The notes beneath the pieces were generated by a model, which saw only the letters and a list, made by a program, of their open reading frames with translations, searched no databases and had not been told where the DNA came from. From Trifolium pratense (taxonomy: Eukaryota > Streptophyta > Magnoliopsida > Fabales > Fabaceae), in NCBI RefSeq assembly GCF_020283565.1, contig NC_060059.1, positions 42,958,338-43,022,337 on the forward strand: a stretch of 64,000 bases of DNA, in the 5' to 3' direction. Position 1 is the first letter of the stretch, and each line of letters begins with the position of its first letter. A program made the position numbers and the translations under genes. Positions 37,863 through 52,295 of the stretch are shown here, in pieces.

Positions 37863-39981
37863 TCAAAATGGAACTGTGTATGGCAAAGCATAAATGTCAA
37901 TCTCTGGCATGTATTGCGCCCGAGGCCATAGAGATTTTGAACATTGAAAGGCATCAGTCTTCTGTTTCTTTGCGACAGGAATTGCTTCCTTAGGTACCGA
38001 ACTAAATAACCAATCTTGATCTAATGAATCCAACCCATCATAGGTTACCGGCTGAATGTTATGTAAAGATTTATACAAAGCCTCAACCCTTCGACTTTCT
38101 TTATCCCTACGACTTTCTTTATTAACTGTCTCATTTGCTGGTTTAGCATTAACAGGAGCCAAATTCTGCAATGGTTTGCAAACTTTGGAAGCAGGATTTC
38201 CATGTAGCTGATTGGTAGTCTCAGTTTTTGTGACACCCTGTAGTGGGCGTTCAACTCTTCTTGCTTCATGAGAGTGTGAATTTGGAACAACACTTCTTGA
38301 AGAAGACCCCAATTGAAATCCTGGTTTGGATTCAACTTTTGTGATAGCCTGAAGTGGTCGTTCAATTGTTCTTGCTTCATGAGAGTGTGAATTTGGAACA
38401 CCACTTCTTGAAGAAGAACCCAATTGAAATCCTTGTTTGGATTCAACTTTTGTGATAGCCTGCGGTGGTCGTTCAATTGGTCTTGCTTCATGAGAGTGTG
38501 AATTTTGAACAACACTTCTTGAAGAAGAACCCAATTGAAATCCTTGTTTAGATTCAACTTTTGTGATAGCCTGCGGTGGCCGTTCAATTGTTCTAGCTTC
38601 CTGAGAGTGTGAACTAGGAAGTCCAACAGTTCTTGAAGAAGACCCTAATTGAAATCCCTGTTTGGATTCCTCGGGTTCTTGGTGTTTCCTCAATGGAAGT
38701 CGAATTTTAATGGGAGGACCTGTTTCACATAAGAGAACAAATTAGATTTCAAACAAGGGTTTAACAACACAACAATGATCAATGTAGTTGAGCAGCTTTT
38801 AAGCTTTCTCACCATTATCTTCACTAGGTAACAGGGAGTCCCTTTTCCTCTTGCTACTTTGAGAACTATCAGAGGTGCAGGGCTCTTGAGGAGAAGAGAC
38901 AGGTTGACCATGTTCTTCTGTAAGACCACTCCTCTCAAGTTGTTCATTCTCATGATTTTCAACCTTTTGCAACTTCCCGTTGGCTTCAGATTCCTTTACA
39001 TCAATGAACTTGAACTTTATACCAACAGTTGCATGAGAGGATGTTGAATCTTTATGTTTATGTTCTTTGTCTCTTTTCCTCTTTTCCTTCTTCTCCTTTT
39101 TCTCCCTCTTCTTCTCTTCCTTCTCCCTTTTCTTCTCCTCCTTTTCCTTCTTGTCCTTCTCTTTCCTTTCTTTCTTGGGCTTCTCCAAATCCAAGTCCAA
39201 ACGGATCTTTAAAGCACCATAACAACATTTTCAAATGGCAGATACGGAAGACCAAAGAAGCTAATATGCTATATTCAAGCAAGCATTGCAATCTTTCATA
39301 CAAACCAGTTACAAAAATCAAGTATCATGACACAAAATTGCAACAGAAGATCAAGACCTATTTTCATAACAACTATCACTAAGGATTAAAATATGAACCT
39401 AACACTAACATAAAAACTAATGGCATACCGAAAAAACTGGTTCAACATTGGGAAAATTACTTAAACTTTAATTTTAAAAAAACACTCCTATAATCACATG
39501 GCCCATAAACACCCACCAACAAATAATTAGAAAATATTTTTTTAATTTTAAAAAGATCTGTATAAATTGTCGAACTCTAATGAGTTATGTTCTTACAAAA
39601 AAAATTATTGCAGATTTTGATTTCAATAATTTGAAACAAAACCCTAATTTGTTATCTTCTTACAAAAAGCGATTTCAATAACTTCAAAGGAAACACCAAT
39701 TATTATAACACAGATCTATTGTTATTTTCAGGAAAATCAAAATTCTAGGTCAAAAAATTTGGGATCGAAAATTTGATTTCAAGGTTGATCTAATTATTAA
39801 ACCTAATCATAATCACAAATCTACGTCTCGCATGTTATAGGCAGAAAATTTCAAGAACACACACGAAGTTGAGCACAAACGGAAAATCGAAAGTGGCTCA
39901 ACAAACCTTAATCGATTCTTCGATCAAGGCATCGGTTTTCCTCAAATACCCTGGAGGTGGGAAAGGGAAGCAACGAGACAT
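37863..39981 (-). CDS. Lys-rich plant protein with tandem 37-aa repeats, 441 aa
   Basis: Exons 39907-39981, 38813-39206 and 37863-38719 join in frame. The N-terminus MSRCFPFPPPGYLRK is a signature of a conserved plant family of unknown function, often named myb-like protein X or similar for its low complexity. Residues about 30-75 are an almost pure Lys/Glu/Arg stretch (EKDKKEKEEKKREKEEKK) that may be nuclear and helical. Exon 3 carries four tandem copies of a unit ESKxGFQLGSSSRSVVxNS followed by HSHEARxIERPxQAITKV. The C-terminus has the conserved QDWLFS and LPEIDIYALPYTVPF-like motif (here MPEIDIYALPYTVPF). Telo-boxes lie upstream (40050-40057, 40124-40131). Molecular role unknown; exon 2 uses an AAAG acceptor, less typical but fixed by the frame. 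Confidence 0.82.
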
Positions 39982-42109: not shown

Positions 42110-43347
42110 GAATAGATTGTCTGGGTGGAAAAGTCGATTCTTGTCGTTTGGTGGTCGTTTGGTTTTGTTAAAGTCTGTCTTGACTTCTTTACCTGTCTAT
42201 GCTCTTTCTTTCTTCAAGGTCCCCTCAGGTATCATTTCCTCTATTGAATCTCTTTTTATTAAATTTTTTTTTGGGGGGGGGGGGGGGGGGGGGGGTGAGG
42301 ATTCTAGGAAAATCTCTTGGGTGAGTTGGAAAGACATTTGTTCGCGTAAGGAGTATGGAGGTTTGGGGGTTAGACAGTTGCGTGAGTTTAACCTAGCGTT
42401 GCTGGGTAAGTGGTGTTGGAGGATGTTAGTGGATAGAGAGGGCTTGTGGTTTAGAGTCTTGGCAGCTCGGTATGGGGTTGAGGATGGTAGACTTTGTGAG
42501 GGAGGTCAGCGAGGCTCGGTGTGGTGGAGGGAGATTGTGCGTTTGAGAGAGGGTGAGGGTGAGTTAGGTGGGAGGTGGTTTGGGGAGCATGTTTTGAGGA
42601 GGGTAGGGGATGGTTCAGATACTCTTTTTTGGACCGACCCTTGGTTGGATGAGATTCCGATGAGGGAGCGGTTTGGACGCCTTTTTTCGTTGGCTGAGAC
42701 CAAGTCGCGCACAGTCGCAGAGATGTTTGCTTTAGGGTGGGGGGCCGATGGAGAGGCGTGGGTGTGGCGGAGGCGGTTGAGGGCGTGGGAGGAGGAGTTG
42801 TTGAGGGAGTGTCAGTTATTACTTCTTGACATTTCTTTGCAGGATCAGACTTTGGACAGGTGGCAATGGAGCCCGGATCCTGACGCAGGGTATACTGTTG
42901 CGGGAGGTTATCAGATTCTGACTCATCAGGTTTATGTTGCTTTACATGATGCGGAAAATCTTATTTGGCACCGTCAGGTTCCGTTGTAGGTTTCCATCTT
43001 TGCGTGGCGCTTATTGCGGGATAGGTTACCCACGAGAGCCAACCTGGTCATTCGTGGAGTTCTAGCTTCTACCGCTGATTCTTGTGTGTTTGGTTGTGGA
43101 GTGACTGAGACGGTCCATCACTTATTTTCATCTTGTAGCATTGCTGCCTCTCTTTGGGACTTAGTTTGTGAGTGGGTTGGCATTTCTTCGCTGGATTTTA
43201 CTACTTTACATGCTCATTTTGTCCAGTTTATAGCTTCGGCAGGTGTATCTCGAGCACGACGGTCTTTTCTTCAGCTTCTTTGGCTAGTGTGTGTTTGAGT
43301 GATATGGACAGAGAGAAATCATCGCTTATTCAAAGGCTCAACAGGCA
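42110..43347 (+). mobile_element. LINE, 5'-truncated; split by the gypsy insertion
   Basis: A long frame from 42117 encodes the end of the RT region (MSGWKSRFLSFGGRLVLLKS, then WKDICSRKEYGGLGVRQLRE, NLALLGKWCWRML, DTLFWTDPWL) and the zf-RVT domain (FAWRLLRDRLPTRANL, CVFGCGVTETVHHLF). Only a few lesions are seen: a TAG at about 42987 and a TGA at about 43296, both apparent single-base changes. The coding frame is cut at 43347 by the gypsy LTR and resumes at 52046. A 23-base G run sits in the ORF at 42273-42295. Confidence 0.85.
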
Positions 43348-43507
43348 TGATGACGAATCGTCACACTCTCTAATCCATGCCTATTTTAGCAACATTAGAT
43401 GCATTTTAGTAGGTTTTTAGCAATAAATATAAGAGAAATCTAACCAAAAGCTTGATTACTTGATTTGCAAGAAAACAGGAAAAATTGCAGGAAATGGAGG
43501 ATTTTCA

Positions 43508-43738
43508 CTACGCTGGGGGCGTAGCCCATCACGCGCCGCGTGATGGAGCTCACAGGGAGCCAAGAATTTTACTCTGATCACGCGCAGCGTGAAGCCTTAC
43601 CACGCGCGGCGTGAAGCTGTGTTGAAGATGAAGATTGCTCTCTGACTTGATCACGCGCCGCGTGATTCGGTTACCACGCGCGGCGTAGTTGATGGATTTG
43701 CAACCACGCGCGGCGTGATAGATCTGGCGCGCGGCGTG
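43508..43738. promoter_or_regulatory. Array of eight CpG-rich palindromes in U3
   Basis: Palindromes at 43508-43524, 43528-43544, 43578-43592, 43601-43613, 43650-43666, 43675-43686, 43705-43717 and 43726-43738. The core is CACGC-GNN-GCGTG; the first is CTACGC-N5-GCGTAG. They form four doublets with centres about 20-23 bp apart, and doublets repeat every 69, 73 and 53 bp. The array ends about 12 bp before the TATA-like box. Each unit contains up to four CpGs and CGCG cores of the class bound by CAMTA factors. A promoter role is inferred. The same array recurs at 50957-51187 in the 3' LTR. Confidence 0.7.
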
Positions 43739-43749
43739 GTTGCCTTCTG

Positions 43750-43758
43750 TATATATAG
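43750..43758 (+). promoter_or_regulatory. Putative TATA box of the gypsy LTR
   Basis: TATATATAG in an otherwise GC-rich stretch, directly downstream of the palindrome array. Position and sequence fit a Pol II core promoter in U3; the transcription start was not identified. Confidence 0.55.
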
Positions 43759-44602
43759 TTTCTGCATAATTCTGTTTTCGGGTTGGAAAATTTGGGGAAT
43801 CTGATCTTGATCTTGGGAATTCCAGGCACGATTCGCAGACTGATCCTGTGTTCCAGAGGAAGAAGGTGGCGAGATTGGAAGCATTCAACATCATGGGAGT
43901 TGATTCCTTGAAGTTGGAGCAAGAATTGAGCTACTTCACGATGAGAGGCTAGACCTCCATTGAGGTTGGATCATGATGAGGAACTAAACCAATGTATTTC
44001 ATGTAATCAATTGTATCTGTACTGAATCTCTCTTTTATGAATGTTATTCAATGAAATTCTATCCTTAATGCTTTACAATTTCTGATCAATCTTGCAATGA
44101 ACTTAGATTTTAATTATGTACGAGAGTATGAGTTGAAATCAGAACTGAATTCATTGTGCATTTGAGTGTTTCCGGTCGAGAGATTGAAACATAGAATGTA
44201 GCATACGATCAACGCGTTTTCAAATACTCCGCTACCGGTAGCTTCCATCCAAGAGATTGGAGAAGTATCGGTAGAGGATAGGGTGGATTTTGACAAGAGA
44301 TTGCGATTCACCATATTGTTGATCTAGTTGTAACATTCGAGTGATTCATTACGATACAATTGAATTGCATGTGAATACTATTGTTTAGGGAATTGTCGAC
44401 GATCCAACCTCATTCTTAATCATTTGATTTCTCAACATTTTCGTACAAACACATCCTTCAAACCAAACCCCCAATCTATGTGTATTTCTTGCATAATGTC
44501 TATGAACACTGTTCGACTAGTCTGATCACACAATCCCTGTGGATCGATATTTTTATTACTACGTGGTAATTCGTTCACTTGCGAAATAATCCATCAAGTT
44601 TT

Positions 44603-44620
44603 TGGCGCCGTTGCCGGGGA
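44603..44620 (+). other. Primer binding site, tRNA-Asp type
   Basis: TGGCGCCGTTGCCGGGGA, a few bases after the 5' LTR, is complementary to the 3' end of plant tRNA-Asp including CCA. This is the usual primer for Athila/Tat-type gypsy elements. Confidence 0.9.
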
Positions 44621-44728
44621 TTGTGATTGATTCGACAAGGCGATAGTGTTCATATTTTTCTGTGTTTTCTTTATTTTTCTGTTTTATATTTTTCTACCGG
44701 AGCGTTCTACTTGTGTGTTTCATTGTGC

Positions 44729-47143
44729 ATGCGGAGAACAGGTCCTCAAGAGCTGCAATTTGATCCAGAGATTGAAAAGACAGCTCGCGCAATTCGAAAG
44801 GCAACAAGGGAAGCTCAAGCTTCAAGGGGAACAGCGTTGCTAAGGGATACACCGGACTGTCAAGGACGGACTGCAGCAACAATGGAAGAAGAGCAGATTC
44901 CACCGGTTCCTCAACCGCCAAGGCGTACCCTTGGTGATTATGGGAGAAGAGACAATGACGCGTTGGCAAATCAAGGCTTTCAGCCGGCGAATCCTGTCTC
45001 ATTCGACATCAAGAACACGGTCCTCTCCGCCCTAAAAGAGAATCCTTATTCAGGTTCGGAAGCTCAATGCCCGAATTTACACTTGTCTCACTTCTATGAA
45101 GCCTGCGACTATACCGATCCACCGGGGGTGAGCGAATCGGACAAAAGACTTAGGTTATTCAAGCATTCTCTCACCGGCCGTGCTAAAGATTGGTTGGACA
45201 CGATACCCGCCGGAACTATTGAGACTTGGAGACAGCTGGAGCGGAAGTTCTTAGATCGTTACTTCCCTATTCATAAGTTCCTAGAAAGAAGGGCTGAAAT
45301 TAGCAACTTCGAACAAGCGGATGGTGAAACGTTGTATGATGCTTGGGAAAGGTTCAAAGTTTGTCTTAAAAGGTGCCCGAATCACGGTTTCGATGGCCAC
45401 AATCAGATGCAAATGTTTACCCAAGGTTTGAGGGCTCAAACGCGAATGATACTTGACGCATCAGCCGGTGGTTCGTTGAAGAACCGTGACGAAACTGAAG
45501 CAAGAGAATTGGTGGAAAGCATGGCTCAAAACGAGTATAGAGCTACTAATGATAGAGGAGCCAAGAAGAAAGGCGGAGTGTTGGAATTGGATACTCAAAC
45601 AGCGCTATTGGCACAGCAAAAGCTCATGACTAGCCAAATGGAAGCAATGATGAAGCTGCTGTCCAATCCGCAAGTTCAATCTTCTCCAATAGGTAAAATT
45701 GACAATGTGCGCTGTGATTTTTGTTTGCAGGACCACCCAAATGGCGGATGCTTCCCGGAGGGTTCAGAGGAGGCTCGTTACCTAGCCAATTTCCGGAAGC
45801 CGTACAACAACAATAACAACGGTTCCGGGTGGGGGAACGGTATGCAAAGTCAAGGTGCACCGCAACAGCAGCAAAGGCCTCCATCAAGGATGGAAGAGAC
45901 TCTAAATCAGTTCATGCTCATGACCCAAAGCAACTTTGAAGCGATGAAATCGAGTCAAGCAACCTCTAACAAGAATCATGAAGCTTCTATAAAGAATCTT
46001 GAGGTGCAAATGGGTCAGCTGTCAAGACAGTTTTCTATGTTGCAAAACCAAGGAGGTTTCGGTGGAAACACTCATGATAATCCGAAAAATGAAACTTGCA
46101 ATGGAATCACTTTGAGGAGTAGAGAGATACCGGAAAGGCCAGCTGTGGAGAAGCCCTTGAAAAAGAAGGTCATTGAGGGAGAAGTTGAAAATAAGCAAGA
46201 AGTTGTAGTTGAAAATGAGAGACATGAGGGAGAAGTAGAAAATGAAAATCTGTTTAAGGAAGTGGAAAATAGTGAGGATGAAGTAGAAGAAGTTGAAAAA
46301 CAGAGGGAGATAAAAGAAAAAGAGAGTAAGAAGGTTGAGAAAGGTAGAGGAGTTGATGAATCGCCATATGCTAGGATGCCTTTTCCTAGGAGAAAGAAAG
46401 TTAAGAATCTTGAGCGGGAGAAGGAGTTCAAGAAGTTCATGAAGGTGTTGAACAAGCTTGAGATGGCCATACCATTGGTTGAGGCATTGGAGCAAATGCC
46501 GAGTTATGCAAAGTTCTTGAAGGAGCTGCTTACAAAGAAAAGAAAACCATTAGATGATGAGATGGTAAGTATGACGGAAGAATGCAGCGCCATCATTCAG
46601 CAGAAGCTACCTCAGAAAAAGAAAGATCCGGGGAGCTTTACAATTACATGCTCTATTGGAAATCTCACTATTGAAAAGGCGTTGTGTGATTTGGGTGCGA
46701 GCATTAATCTGATGCCGTTATCAATGATGAAGAAGATACCGGGAGCAGTAGCAAGGCCGACAAAGATGAGTCTCTCTTTGGCGGATAGATCAATAGTGCA
46801 TCCGGAAGGTATCCTCCATGACGTATTGGTTAGAGTGGGTAAATTTGTGTTTCCCGCAGACTTTGTGGTTCTAGACATAGAAGAAACTAGGGAGTGGGAA
46901 CCGTTGCTACTCGGTAGACCCTTCCTAGCAACTAGCCGTGCCCTAATCGATGTAGAGATGGGGGAACTCATGCTAAGGACCGATGATCAGCAGGTTACAT
47001 TCAATGTCTTTGACAAGATGACATGTGATGACGGAGACCCACAGTGTTTTAGAATTCAGGTTTATGATCACATGGTTAAAAATGCTCTTAAAATACCTTG
47101 GAATGCACACTACTTGCCACATGGTGGCACTTCTTTTCCTTAA
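44729..47143 (+). CDS. Gypsy Gag-protease polyprotein, about 804 aa
   Basis: The frame is open from 44627; the start at MRRTGPQELQF (44729) is preferred because the upstream 34 residues are hydrophobic and unlike Gag. In numbering from 44627: a retrotransposon Gag domain at about 150-290 (LTGRAKDWLDTIPAGTIETW, FLDRYFP), a zinc-finger-like CDFCLQDHPNGGC at about 362, a Glu/Lys-rich linker at about 520-610, and a retropepsin-type aspartic protease at about 670-790 with active-site motif CDLGASINLMP (about 686). The frame stops after HGGTSFP without running into RT. It forms the particle and processes itself; RT and integrase must come from elsewhere. No internal stops, unlike most old elements. 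Confidence 0.9.
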   Translation: MRRTGPQELQFDPEIEKTARAIRKATREAQASRGTALLRDTPDCQGRTAATMEEEQIPPVPQPPRRTLGDYGRRDNDALANQGFQPANPVSFDIKNTVLSALKENPYSGSEAQCPNLHLSHFYEACDYTDPPGVSESDKRLRLFKHSLTGRAKDWLDTIPAGTIETWRQLERKFLDRYFPIHKFLERRAEISNFEQADGETLYDAWERFKVCLKRCPNHGFDGHNQMQMFTQGLRAQTRMILDASAGGSLKNRDETEARELVESMAQNEYRATNDRGAKKKGGVLELDTQTALLAQQKLMTSQMEAMMKLLSNPQVQSSPIGKIDNVRCDFCLQDHPNGGCFPEGSEEARYLANFRKPYNNNNNGSGWGNGMQSQGAPQQQQRPPSRMEETLNQFMLMTQSNFEAMKSSQATSNKNHEASIKNLEVQMGQLSRQFSMLQNQGGFGGNTHDNPKNETCNGITLRSREIPERPAVEKPLKKKVIEGEVENKQEVVVENERHEGEVENENLFKEVENSEDEVEEVEKQREIKEKESKKVEKGRGVDESPYARMPFPRRKKVKNLEREKEFKKFMKVLNKLEMAIPLVEALEQMPSYAKFLKELLTKKRKPLDDEMVSMTEECSAIIQQKLPQKKKDPGSFTITCSIGNLTIEKALCDLGASINLMPLSMMKKIPGAVARPTKMSLSLADRSIVHPEGILHDVLVRVGKFVFPADFVVLDIEETREWEPLLLGRPFLATSRALIDVEMGELMLRTDDQQVTFNVFDKMTCDDGDPQCFRIQVYDHMVKNALKIPWNAHYLPHGGTSFP

Positions 47144-47841
47144 CCCTTAGGGGTATGGAACGTCAAGCATCGGGACGTTAAACAAGCGCTGGTTGGGAGG
47201 CAACCCAACGGTTTCTAATGTTTTAGTATGTTTGTTTTTGAAGTATGTAGGTAGGTGTGTAGCAGAAGCAAGGACAGGAAGCAGAACAGGGCACAACAGA
47301 GTTCTACTACGCCGGGGGCGTAGTACAATCACGCGCGGCGTGATCCTTCAACACAGAGGAAGGAGTTTTCAGCATGTATCACGCGCGGCGTGGGGGATGC
47401 ATCACGCGCGGCGTGAAAACTGGAGAAATATGGAGTCTCTGACTAAGTGATTACGCGCCGCGTGATGGTGATTACGCGCGGCGTGGTATGCTTGAAAGAA
47501 GTTCTTGACCGTTACAATTGGTGCTACGCGCGGCGTAGCAGGGGTCACGCGCGGCGTGGTTACACAGAAAAGCGTGTCAAATTTGAATTTCTTCATCTTT
47601 CCAACTACTCCATCCGTCCCATCATCAATTCACACGGTCTCCCACACGAAAAACTCCATTGATAACCCATTTTCACTCTTCAAACCTCTCCAATTTCACT
47701 TCTAATCACCTTCAATCATCCATTTCCTTCACATTCACATACCACCCATATCACCCACTCCTAATTCCACTCCAAATTCCTCATTTCATCATATTTCACC
47801 ACCTTCCCAAATTAACCCATTTCAATCTTTACTGTATCAAG
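47144..47841 (+). other. Non-coding spacer between gag-pro and ORF2
   Basis: Begins with gttaaacaagcgctggttggg, a short conserved-looking leader, then the second palindrome array (47307-47558), then a pyrimidine-rich, Ser/His-free-looking stretch up to the ORF2 ATG at 47842. No coding domain is recognised, although the frame is open from 47659. Confidence 0.6.
47307..47558. promoter_or_regulatory. Internal array of eight palindromes, homologous to the U3 array
   Basis: Palindromes at 47307-47323, 47328-47344, 47378-47392, 47401-47416, 47450-47466, 47471-47486, 47523-47539 and 47545-47558. The order matches U3, starting with CTACGC-N5-GCGTAG and then CACGC-GNN-GCGTG units. Doublet members are centred 21-23 bp apart; doublets repeat every 71, 72 and 73 bp. 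Gaps match the LTR array closely (4/33/8/33/4/36/5 against 3/33/8/36/8/18/8). Spacers are mostly unalignable apart from a ctctgact word before the fifth unit. It could serve as an internal promoter for ORF2 or as RNA structure; this is inference. Confidence 0.65.
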
Positions 47842-49362
47842 ATGTTGGCACGGCTAACCGGAAAGGGAAAGAAGAAGAGTGATGCTAATCCAACACAAGA
47901 GCCACCCAAGAAACCACGAACAAAGATGAGTGCAAGCAAGGGCCAATCTTCTCGGTCCGCTCAAGCATCTCCTCCTCGCCGGAGCAACGTGACTCAACCA
48001 CAGGTCCATCCCCACTTCATCAGTGCAGTTCATGAAAAAAGGTACTCACAAATTTGAACCTTTACTATTAATCAAGAGAAGGGTTTTGGTGAGGATTTGC
48101 TGAATGGTGTAGCTGAGTTAGGGAATGAGATCAAGTCTAGGGGTTGGGAGAAATTTAATAAGTTGATGATTAAAGATGAGATTAATCCTGGCAACCAGAT
48201 GTGGGCTAGGGAATTCTTTGCAAATGCCTATTTACCGGATCAACCATTGTTTCCGGAGTATGTTTCTGTGGTTAGGGGTGTTAAGGTGAGTTATTCTTTT
48301 GAAACTATAAACAATCTGCTTGGTTGTGCTGCTGGAGGAGTGTGTGAACTCTTGCGTGATAGAGAGAGGATTGACAAGAGTGGGATCGAAGTTAGGGAGG
48401 AACTAAAGAATATAGTGTGTCGTCCGGGAGCAATGTGGCTAGCCCATTCAGCAGCTTCCCTCCCTAGAAGGTTGAGCTTAACAAGTTTTAACCCTATTCA
48501 CCGTGCTTGGGGTGAATTTTGGTTGAAGAATGTGAGGGTTGTAGGTAACAATTCGGAGATTCAGCTTGATAATGCGTACGCGGTCCGGTTGTTGGTTGAA
48601 GGGAAGTATATTAATCTGGGGTATTGGTTACAAAAAGATCTTCATGAGATAGCCAATCATCCGAACCCAACCTTTACTTTGGGACATTGTAATCTCATCG
48701 CTGCTTTGTGTAGGGCGAATAATGTTCCCATGAATGTGCAAGAAGGTGATCTTCATCCCGTCCGACCACTGTCTTTATCTTACTTCATCAAAAAGTTTGA
48801 GAGAGGTCCTATTGTGCCCCGAGGTGAGGGGAATGCTGCAAGAGAGGAAGCTTTGAGGGAAGAAGAAGAGATTAATCGGTTTGAAGAAGGTAACCATCCG
48901 GATCAACAGGGGGATCCGGTACATGAGTATCAAGAAATACCAGCACATGCTCCTCCTCGTTACTCTCATGATATTAATCAGCTTGCTTCAATGTTGCATC
49001 AGATGGAAATTTCTCAATATTCGGGGCTGCCGAATCTCTACTTTGATACTGCCTCTTCCATGTACACCGAGGCGATGACTTACCGGTCTACTTTCCCTCC
49101 TCCTACTTTTGGGACTTTATATCCAGTTGATACTGATTGGGAGGCGCATCAGGCGAGGGAATTGACATCTTTTCAGGCCAGACAAGCTTACAATTCTGGT
49201 TTGAGAACTTCTGAGTTGGCCGAGATCGAGAGGCGACGCCGGGTTGAGCAGGATGAGGCTGCTGCTATGGAGAGGGAGATGCTGGACGTGGATGGGTTGA
49301 ATCTGAACTTGAATAGCCCATTCACAAACTACTTCACTGGCCAGCCGGATGATGCGGTTTGA
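47842..49362 (+). pseudogene. Second ORF of the gypsy element, one in-frame TGA
   Basis: The frame from MLARLTGKGKKKSD at 47842 to the stop at 49362 spans about 506 codons, with one TGA at 48055-48057 after EKRYSQI. The part beyond is open for over 420 codons and contains WAREFFANAYLPDQ, VRGVKVSYSFETINNLLG, CRPGAMWL and NPIHRAWGEFWLKN, which I recognise as the plant-transposon protein domain found in additional ORFs of Athila-like elements. Its biochemical role is unknown. The N-terminus is basic and proline-rich. The single TGA may be a recent nonsense change or be read through. Confidence 0.75.
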
Positions 49363-50796: not shown

Positions 50797-52045
50797 TGAT
50801 GACGAATCGTCACACTCTCTAATCCATGCCTATTTTAGCAACATTAGATGCATTTTAGTAGGTTTTTAGCAATAAATATAAGAGAAATCTAACCAAAAGC
50901 TTGATTACTTGATTTGCAAGAAAACAGGAAAAATTGCAGGAAATGGAGGATTTTCACTACGCTGGGGGCGTAGCCCATCACGCGCCGCGTGATGGAGCTC
51001 ACAGGGAGCCAAGAATTTTACTCTGATCACGCGCGGCGTGAAGCCTTACCACGCGCGGCGTGAAGCTGTGTTGAAGATGAAGATTGCTCTCTGACTTGAT
51101 CACGCGCCGCGTGATTCGGTTACCACGCGCGGCGTAGTTGATGGATTTGCAACCACGCGCGGCGTGATAGATCTGGCGCGCGGCGTGGTTGCCTTCTGTA
51201 TATATAGTTTCTGCATAATTCTGTTTTCGGGTTGGAAAATTTGGGGAATCTGATCTTGATCTTGGGAATTCCAGGCACAATTCGCAGACTGATCCTGTGT
51301 TCCAGAGGAAGAAGGTGGCGAGATTGGAACCATTCAACATCATGGGAGTTGATTCCTTGAAGTTGGAGCAAGAATTGAGCTACTTCACGATGAGAGGCTA
51401 GACCTCCATTAAGGTTGGATCATGATGAGGAACTAAACCAATGTATTTCATGTAATCAATTGTATCTGTACTGAATCTCTCTTTTATGAATGTTATTCAA
51501 TGAAATTCTATCCTTAATGCTTTACAATTTCTGATCAATCTTGCAATGAACTTAGATTTTAATTATGTACGAGAGTATGAGTTGAAATCAGAACTGAATT
51601 CATTGTGCATTTGAGTGTTTCCGGTCGAGAGATTGAAACATAGAATGTAGCATACGATCAACGCGTTTTCAAATACTCCGCTACCGGTAGCTTCCATCCA
51701 AGAGATTGGAGAAGTATCGGTAGAGGATAGGGTGGATTTTGACAAGAGATTGCGATTCACCATATTGTTGATCTAGTTGTAACATTCGAGTGATTCATTA
51801 CGATACAATTGAATTGCATGTGAATACTATTGTTTAGGGAATTGTCGACGATCCAACCTCATTCTTAATCATTTGATTTCTCAACATTTTCGTACAAACA
51901 CATCCTTCAAACCAAACCCCCAATCTATGTGTATTTCTTGCATAATGTCTATGAACACTGTTCGACTAGTCTGATCACACAATCCCTGTGGATCGATATT
52001 TTTATTACTACGTGGTAATTCGTTCACTTGCGAAATAATCCATCA
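50797..52045 (+). repeat. 3' LTR of the gypsy element
   Basis: 1249 bp, collinear with the 5' LTR, with four substitutions at 51035, 51279, 51330 and 51411 and no indels seen. It contains the same eight-palindrome array and TATA-like box. It is followed by the AGGCA duplication at 52046-52050. Confidence 0.95.
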
Positions 52046-52295
52046 AGGCACACCTCATCTTTTGTTGGACAAGATCAAGCTATTCTCATTTAGGTGGTTG
52101 AAGTCGACGAGTATTACGTTAACTTTGAACTACCATAGCTGGTGGTCTAGTCCATGGTTGTGTTTGGGTCTTGTTTGATTTGATTGTGATTGTATCTCTA
52201 TGACTATATTGTAAACTTTTTTAGTCTACCTTGGTACATCTTGTGCTAAGGAGGCTGTTTGTGTTAATATATTTCATTTTGGCTTCTTCAAAAAA
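52046..52295 (+). mobile_element. 3' end of the LINE split by the gypsy element
   Basis: After the AGGCA duplication the sequence continues the LINE frame broken at 43347: TPHLLLDKIKLFSFRWLKST, then NYHSWWSSPWLCLG and a stop. A short 3' UTR and an A run follow at about 52289-52296, then (tta)n. Together with 42110-43347 this is one LINE copy. Confidence 0.85.

Follow-up and report, generated by a model that had tools for sequence, protein, structure and literature searches.

Structure of the element

The analysed stretch, called the window here, comprised 64,000 nucleotides (C1:42958338-43022337) of the 413.6 Mb genome of red clover (Trifolium pratense). It contained a copy of an Athila-like gag-pro-ORF2 retrotransposon with LTRs at 43348-44598 and 50797-52047. 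The following parts were assigned, in window positions:

43343..43347, plus strand: target-site duplication AGGCA, read from the flanks, with its second copy at 52046-52050
43348..44598, plus strand: 5′ LTR, TG...CA, by self-alignment to 50797-52047
43507..43739, plus strand: U3 palindrome array of eight units, one N5 and the others N3, the last being GCGCGCGGCGT
43750..43757, plus strand: TATA box TATATATA, 12 nt past the last core of the U3 array
44603..44619, plus strand: primer-binding site TGGCGCCGTTGCCGGGG, read from the sequence
44627..47143, plus strand: gag-pro ORF with PF03732 Retrotrans_gag, and Asp_protease_2 under the curated cut-off
47306..47559, plus strand: internal palindrome array of eight units forming four doublets, by unit search
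47842..49362, plus strand: ORF2 with PF20167 Transposase_32, by domain search
50797..52047, plus strand: 3′ LTR, by self-alignment, its U3 array identical in make-up to that of the 5′ LTR

The LTRs were 99.68% identical in self-alignment, with 4 mismatches in 1251 positions. This alignment extended two bases into the target-site duplication, and the terminal CA of the 5′ LTR was located at 44595-44596. The primer-binding site TGGCGCCGTTGCCGGGG is presumably of the tRNA-Asp type of Athila and Calypso elements. Pairing with tRNA-Asp was named for the primer-binding sites of Diaspora and Calypso (PMC1142308). The true start of gag-pro probably lies further inside the ORF. Neither the ORF list nor the domain search revealed a pol ORF in the window copy, and ORF2 was the only plus-strand frame of more than 100 aa, counted stop to stop, between gag-pro and the 3′ LTR. 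With 102.7 bits against PF20167 (cut-off 45), ORF2 resembled the Athila-type accessory ORF; the Transposase_32 domain was also reported for a sunflower Athila (PMC11728184). The window ORF2 held a single in-frame stop at 48055-48057, and intact relatives encoded 506 aa.

Related arrangements were found at two further loci. At C5:37620918-37643735, four LTRs alternated with three internal regions in steps of 7353 bp, and this locus is a tandem array of the window-type element. At C1:6687272-6696164, three LTR-type arrays were spaced at 4317 bp, with an additional doublet (L073); they are probably shorter derivatives with the U3 array of the window element. Elsewhere in the window, a minus-strand ORF at 37863-38693 contained a tandem repeat (38226-38669) of four copies with a period of about 111 bp.

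Units and geometry of the two arrays

The internal array, located between gag-pro and ORF2, consisted of one ACGC-N5-GCGT unit (47309-47321) and seven ACGC-N3-GCGT units. Unit make-up was alike in the internal array, the 5′ U3 array and the U3 copy of the 3′ LTR. A sequence-only reading of this DNA had proposed that the U3 array recurs between gag-pro and ORF2 with its geometry kept, and the unit coordinates of both arrays agreed with it. Between units of 13-15 bp, the gaps were 7/37/10/36/8/39/8 in the internal array and 6/36/9/38/10/17/8 in U3. The earlier gap lists had the same pattern and shorter values, because longer palindromes were counted. The proposed recurrence of the internal doublets at 71, 72 and 73 bp was found for the first units of the doublets; the second units followed at 73, 70 and 73 bp. 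Exact units numbered seven in U3 and eight in the internal array, whereas shuffled sequences averaged no more than 0.013 per class. Genome-wide, the two-site pattern gave 2245+2093 matches and the reversed control 0+0. A chance origin of the window arrays is excluded.

The unit site is directional. Read in element orientation in 30 copies each, the centre triplet of the N3 site started with GC in 202/203 internal and 177/180 U3 sites, and the mirror form was absent from all 203 internal and 180 U3 sites. Units of a doublet were spaced 20-23 bp apart nearly everywhere. Some U3 arrays contained a step of 30-32 bp, and unit numbers varied, with 5 to 12 parsed units among six U3 arrays. The suggested conservation of phase was only loose. 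Spacers were compared by their best z values against the long spacers of five U3 arrays. These were 5.6, 4.1 and 3.3 for the long internal spacers of the window and 2.8, 7.2 and 2.6 for those of another copy (L071). Against its own U3, just one internal spacer of the window stood out (z 4.1). The description of most spacers as unalignable was only partly correct.

Selection on the palindromes

Copies were taken from the best-scoring 30 of 986 LTR and 30 of 351 internal first-look candidates, a choice that favours close copies. Columns with shared variants were found at 7/112 palindrome and 36/141 spacer positions of the 30 internal copies, and at 8/111 and 35/122 positions of the 30 LTR copies. 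A set with one copy per element retained 17 LTR and 28 internal copies; 13/30 LTR loci (second LTRs, or loci no more than 25 kb from another one) and 2/30 internal loci (the tandem copies L052 and L055) were dropped. In this set, inherited-variant columns accounted for 4/111 palindrome versus 24/122 spacer positions in U3 (p=1.8e-4) and 7/112 versus 34/141 in the internal array (p=1.2e-4). Selection on palindromes relative to spacers, as proposed by the sequence-only reading, was thereby supported in both arrays. Singletons were less skewed, with 19 in palindromes versus 33 in spacers of the internal array and 8 versus 16 in the LTR. A McDonald-Kreitman-like contrast with these singletons gave p=0.008 pooled over both arrays and missed 0.05 for the single arrays (p=0.19 for U3, p=0.06 for the internal array). 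The palindromes held 30 CpG sites per array. Changes from CpG to TG or CA affected 6/900 and 8/900 sites inside palindromes (0.7-0.9%), 27/750 sites outside them in the LTR (3.6%) and 46/390 in the internal flank (11.8%).

These data bear on the view that the arrays are functionless minisatellites, grown by unit duplication, whose U3 and internal copies are kept alike by recombination. The varying unit number, the tandem doublets and the likeness of some spacers between the two arrays would fit. Recombination would homogenise the spacers as well, yet inherited variants avoided the palindromes. CpG-rich units would be expected to decay fastest and did not, and the position of the arrays relative to TATA box and leader recurred in other families (see below). 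A minisatellite origin of this kind is very improbable.

One unit with changes in both arms had been read as keeping its symmetry. This carries little weight, since the outer base pair varied freely. Among 203 internal sites in 30 copies, the outer pair was C/G in 104, T/G in 58, T/A in 28 and T/C in 7, with C/A (3), G/G (2) and A/G (1) being rarer. Among 180 U3 sites in 30 copies, it was C/G in 140, C/A in 25, G/G in 7, C/T in 6 and T/A in 2. Compensatory change within family 1, the ORF2 family of the window element, was rejected on these grounds. Nor did 27 unique single-change variants show a preference for G-U pairing on the sense side: such pairing was retained in the sense RNA by 6, in the antisense only by 14 and in neither by 7. 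Changes hit the right arm in 19 variants and the left arm in 8.

Age of the arrays and a mosaic element

The array pair was old, as had been suggested. A family whose ORF2 was 62-69% identical to family 1 carried both arrays, and the pair is therefore older. Recent gene conversion of the internal array from a sister U3, first suggested by L069, one of whose spacers matched with z 5.6, was rejected for this reason. A comparison of R/U5 relationships for a recombination signal gave no decisive pattern.

The member of that family at C6:33.50 Mb (P0017-type) was a mosaic. The end of its gag-pro shared 83% identity with L098 over 132 aa and 75% with L099 over 79 aa, both of family 2, and 70% with the window over 140 aa. 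Its ORF2 reached 62-69% identity with three ORF2s of family 1 but 38-41% with two family-2 ORF2s, and both of its arrays were of the family-1 class. Both arrays thus go with ORF2 and not with gag-pro, which supports but does not prove co-adaptation. One exchange could carry array, ORF2 and 3′ LTR, because all three adjoin, and such linkage could be enough to keep them together, with no co-adaptation involved. The 5′ LTR of the P0017-type element (L088, L090; C6:33.498-33.507 Mb) showed a shortened U3 array fused to unrelated-looking upstream DNA and lacked a site-to-site stretch found in the 3′ LTR.

Motif classes in three ORF2 families

The layout was kept in ORF2 relatives 32-41% identical to family 1, but the palindromes differed. 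The motif classes ACGC-N3-GCGT, GCGC-N4-GCGC and GCGC-N3-GCGC corresponded to three ORF2 families, a small number. Family 2 was represented by L098 and L099 with GCGC-YRTG-GCGC doublets, and family 3 by L096 and L097 with GCGC-N3-GCGC units amid more degenerate ones. None of these four arrays contained ACGC-N3..5-GCGT units. Downstream of family-2 ORF2s, the U3 arrays L100 and L102 were of the GCGC-N4-GCGC type before TATATAAG; downstream of family-3 ORF2s, L103 and L107 carried GCGC-N3-GCGC before TATATATA. With array stretches cut by eye, as also for the CACGCGC counts below, exact units belonged to each array's own class only in 13/13 arrays and in L107; in family 3, just three units per array were exact and the others degenerate. 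The family-2 pattern had 33+38 matches genome-wide versus 0+0 in the control; among these matches were U3/internal/U3 triplets at C5:42.788/42.792/42.796 and C2:15.156/15.160/15.164.

U3 and internal motif class were concordant in 7/7 elements (window; C1:20.85 Mb; C6:33.50; C5:42.79; C2:15.16; C3:46.81; C5:30.02), where C3:46.81 and C5:30.02 contributed only a downstream LTR, assigned to the same element by position and in C5:30.02 farther from ORF2 than usual. That other families bear another motif, alike in both arrays, was missing from the sequence-only reading. So were the direction of the site and the G-poor, ATG-free ORF2 leader that follows the internal array. Family-matched palindromes in both places suggest one matched DNA-binding protein for both arrays. 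The translated end upstream of the family-3 array may be that of an integrase. It matched no family in Pfam or NCBIfam and had one chance match in PDB (E=1), and the label autonomous is unproven for the family-3 element.

The arrays might instead be CpG-dense, sparsely methylated platforms that keep chromatin open at the LTR and at the ORF2 start, and no sequence-specific factor of their own would be needed. The 30 CpG sites in the palindromes of each array and their low decay would agree with this, and Sirevirus arrays were described as forming predicted CpG islands (PMC2829016). A CpG platform requires neither palindromes nor a fixed direction nor a class common to both arrays, and this explanation is improbable.

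Putative promoters in U3 and before ORF2

The distance from the last core to the TATA box was 11-12 nt in 41/41 U3 rows, with the window counted twice and LTR pairs included. Both U3s of family 2 had 12 nt at this place, and two U3s of family 3 had 19 nt. The region between gag-pro and ORF2 contained these further features around the internal array:

47144..47211, plus strand: conserved non-coding block GGAACGTCAAGCATCGGGACGTTAAACAAGCGCTGGTTGGGAGGCAACCCAACG, directly after the gag-pro stop, by alignment
47215..47250, plus strand: stretch resembling a 3′ splice site, with a CTAAT branch-point-like motif, a U-rich part and TGTAG before GT
47506..47516, plus strand: TGACCGTTACA, between units 6 and 7, by alignment
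47574..47600, plus strand: conserved block GTGT.AAATTTGAATTTCTTCATCTTY at the onset of the G-poor leader, by alignment
47588..47841, plus strand: ATG-free, G-poor leader, by composition

The upstream order in other ORF2 copies was array, TGACCGTTAC, last units, GTGT.AAATTYGAATTTCTTCATCTTC block, leader and ORF2 start. In the promoter alignment of 15 family-1 rows, several of them diverged copies (L081-L087, L091-L095), TGACCGTTAC, the first ten bases of TGACCGTTACA, was identical in 15/15. TGACCGTTACA presumably resembles the MSA element (MYB3R, G2/M) with the core AACGG, on the opposite strand. No canonical TATA box was seen after the internal array.

Transcripts of ORF2 may begin in the block at 47574..47600. 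At this block, G content fell from 39% (-50..-20) to 0.4% (0..+20) in 13 family-1 promoters, and the first ATG followed 239-267 nt past it in 13/13. The window stretch 47560-47842 contained 4.2% G. Across the three families, leaders of 253-430 nt had 1.4-3.4% G and no ATG in 17/17 promoters. Among close copies, 29/30 leaders were free of ATG, L056 being the exception. Taken alone, the absence of ATG from the window leader was not significant against shuffles (P=0.22 dinucleotide, P=0.30 mononucleotide). The stretch from the acceptor-like site to the leader contained 2-8 ATGs in 15/17 promoters and none in two. The presence of CCATGG in family-2 palindromes speaks against ribosomes that enter at a cap further upstream and scan across the array.

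The GGAACGTCAAGCATCGGGACGTTAAACAAGCGCTGGTTGGGAGGCAACCCAACG block could be traced in each of the three families, although family 3 had insertions in it. It was strongly conserved even across families without a common array motif. It includes an inverted repeat, GTTGGG/CCCAAC, and may act as an RNA element. The acceptor-like stretch just upstream of the array was similar in families 1-3; the family-2 site meant is TCTAATGCAG followed by GCC, and a later TGCAG before G was also present. Judged by its motifs, 47215-47250 is likely a 3′ splice site. Because it precedes the array, ORF2 may come, at least partly, from spliced RNA. A promoter upstream of the leader would fit best, and a spliced route is possible besides it.

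In an RNA-level alternative, the units would fold into hairpins once transcribed and serve packaging, export or a ribosome shunt, and ORF2 would be translated from LTR-started RNA spliced at 47250. The units are able to pair, and the CTAAT stretch ending in TGTAG or TGCAG before G was present in all three families. Both arrays are present in the element RNA, the U3 array because U3 is the RNA 3′ end. Sense G-U pairing was kept in only 6/27 variants, although this skew came partly from the 19/27 changes in the right arm, and hairpins as the main selected form were disfavoured. The G-poor leader begins only past the array, the ATGs between acceptor and leader would stand in the way, and the near-fixed distance between array and TATA box is a feature at the DNA level. 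The RNA-level alternative is unlikely.

Proposed twin promoters and candidate factors

The observed architecture, conservation, family-matched motifs, constrained ORF2 and leader composition are probably best explained by twin promoters, the first located in the LTR and the second serving ORF2; both would bind one factor, with a specificity that changes from family to family. Promoter activity, start site and protein binding are what we infer from these observations. The U3 array, immediately before the TATA box of the LTR, would serve the genomic RNA and the array at 47306-47559 a second promoter, for ORF2. Transcription of ORF2 would start near 47590 in the TTCATCTTY block and run through the G-poor, ATG-free leader into ORF2. 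A sequence-specific protein would recognise each unit, YACGCGCNGCGTR, as a directional DNA site with imperfect palindromic symmetry, and would occupy doublets with a spacing of about two helical turns. Both arrays would be read by a single trans-acting factor, either a host protein or ORF2 itself. A specificity differing between families would lead both arrays to carry one family-specific motif.

That a host transcription factor reads the sites is a sub-case of the twin-promoter explanation and has a little less than an even chance; FHY3/FAR1 or CAMTA-type proteins would perhaps serve family 1 and other factors the other families. The CAMTA-type CGCG-box motif is VCGCGB. CACGCGC occurred six times in the window U3 and four times in the internal array (both strands). 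It is the published FHY3/FAR1 site, and FHY3/FAR1 proteins dimerise (PMC13306707). Several family-1 units read TACGCGC instead. CACGCGC was found in the four family-1 arrays counted and in none of four family-2 arrays, which also lacked VCGCGB in 4/4. Two family-3 arrays had one and zero CACGCGC, both with VCGCGB. FHY3/FAR1 as a general explanation was weakened by these counts, as it fits some family-1 units and not family 2.

It is possible, if doubtful, that ORF2 with its Transposase_32 domain is the DNA-binding factor for both arrays. ORF2 is under strong purifying selection: median dN/dS was 0.11 (378 pairs from 28 copies, L052 and L055 left out), and 71/84 scored matches to a diverged ORF2 were stop-free. 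The predicted model (mean pLDDT 66) showed a basic N-terminus, a confident core at about residues 60-300 and a long C-terminal helix. This model, built from a 17-row alignment, had no PDB match at E<=0.001. ORF2 might, just as tentatively, act as a sequence-specific activator or anti-silencer for the internal promoter and the LTR, its specificity co-evolving with the palindromes. If true, the Athila-type accessory ORF would gain a function, with ORF2 corresponding to VANC among class I elements and paralleling, in a plant, the Tas loop of foamy viruses.

Comparison with known systems

Athila and Calypso elements share the tRNA-Asp-type primer-binding site, a pol-less gag in many families, an accessory ORF before the 3′ LTR and purifying selection on non-autonomous ORFs (PMC2410132, PMC1142308). 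The main text of PMC2410132 contains neither 'palindrom' nor 'promoter' and describes no palindrome array for Athila/Calypso. Among top-ranked open-licence papers, no report of arrays in the LTR and before an ORF was found for Athila-like elements, and an exact-motif search of such papers gave no occurrence of ACGCGCGGCGT or ACGCGCCGCGT.

VANC proteins belong to VANDAL DNA transposons, and their binding and demethylation activity was demonstrated (PMC5735166). As in that system, non-coding motif repeats differed between related elements along with the protein, here in three families. ORF2 has another domain and is a candidate binder only. Foamy viruses join the LTR and an internal promoter of one retroelement through one encoded protein, Tas (PMC8670036, PMC4929722); the analogy lies in the logic only, and no sequence relation is claimed. 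Grande gene23 is likewise an accessory gene of a plant LTR element with its own promoter, but it is antisense, and the account in PMC7264820 describes no palindrome array as far as it covers this gene.

The closest known case is the repeated motifs of Sireviruses, in a different superfamily. Palindromic motifs in high copy occur in their LTRs upstream of the TATA box and again upstream of ENV, one motif per element serving both places; motifs differ between elements, with some shared, and four ENV-less elements were noted as having no motif copies beyond the LTR (PMC2829016). Bousios et al. (2010) saw support for an internal ENV promoter (PMC2829016). The clover element likewise had clusters before the TATA box and before the accessory gene. 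It differs in being an Athila-like Ty3/gypsy element in which most units form doublets and a G-poor leader precedes an ORF with the Transposase_32 domain. Its cores are ACGC/GCGT and GCGC/GCGC, whereas 12/13 motifs of the Ty1/copia Sireviruses have CGG-CCG cores (PMC2829016). Sirevirus membership is not claimed, because the CGG-CCG core was absent and Retrotrans_gag, the Athila-type primer-binding site and Transposase_32 do not fit a Ty1/copia genome. The expression and role of extra ORFs in plant LTR retrotransposons is an old question that is now testable here: a second promoter and its start site are predicted, the DNA site is defined, and across three natural families this site differs alike in both predicted promoters. 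That Sireviruses, which belong to another superfamily, show a similar layout points to a general strategy.
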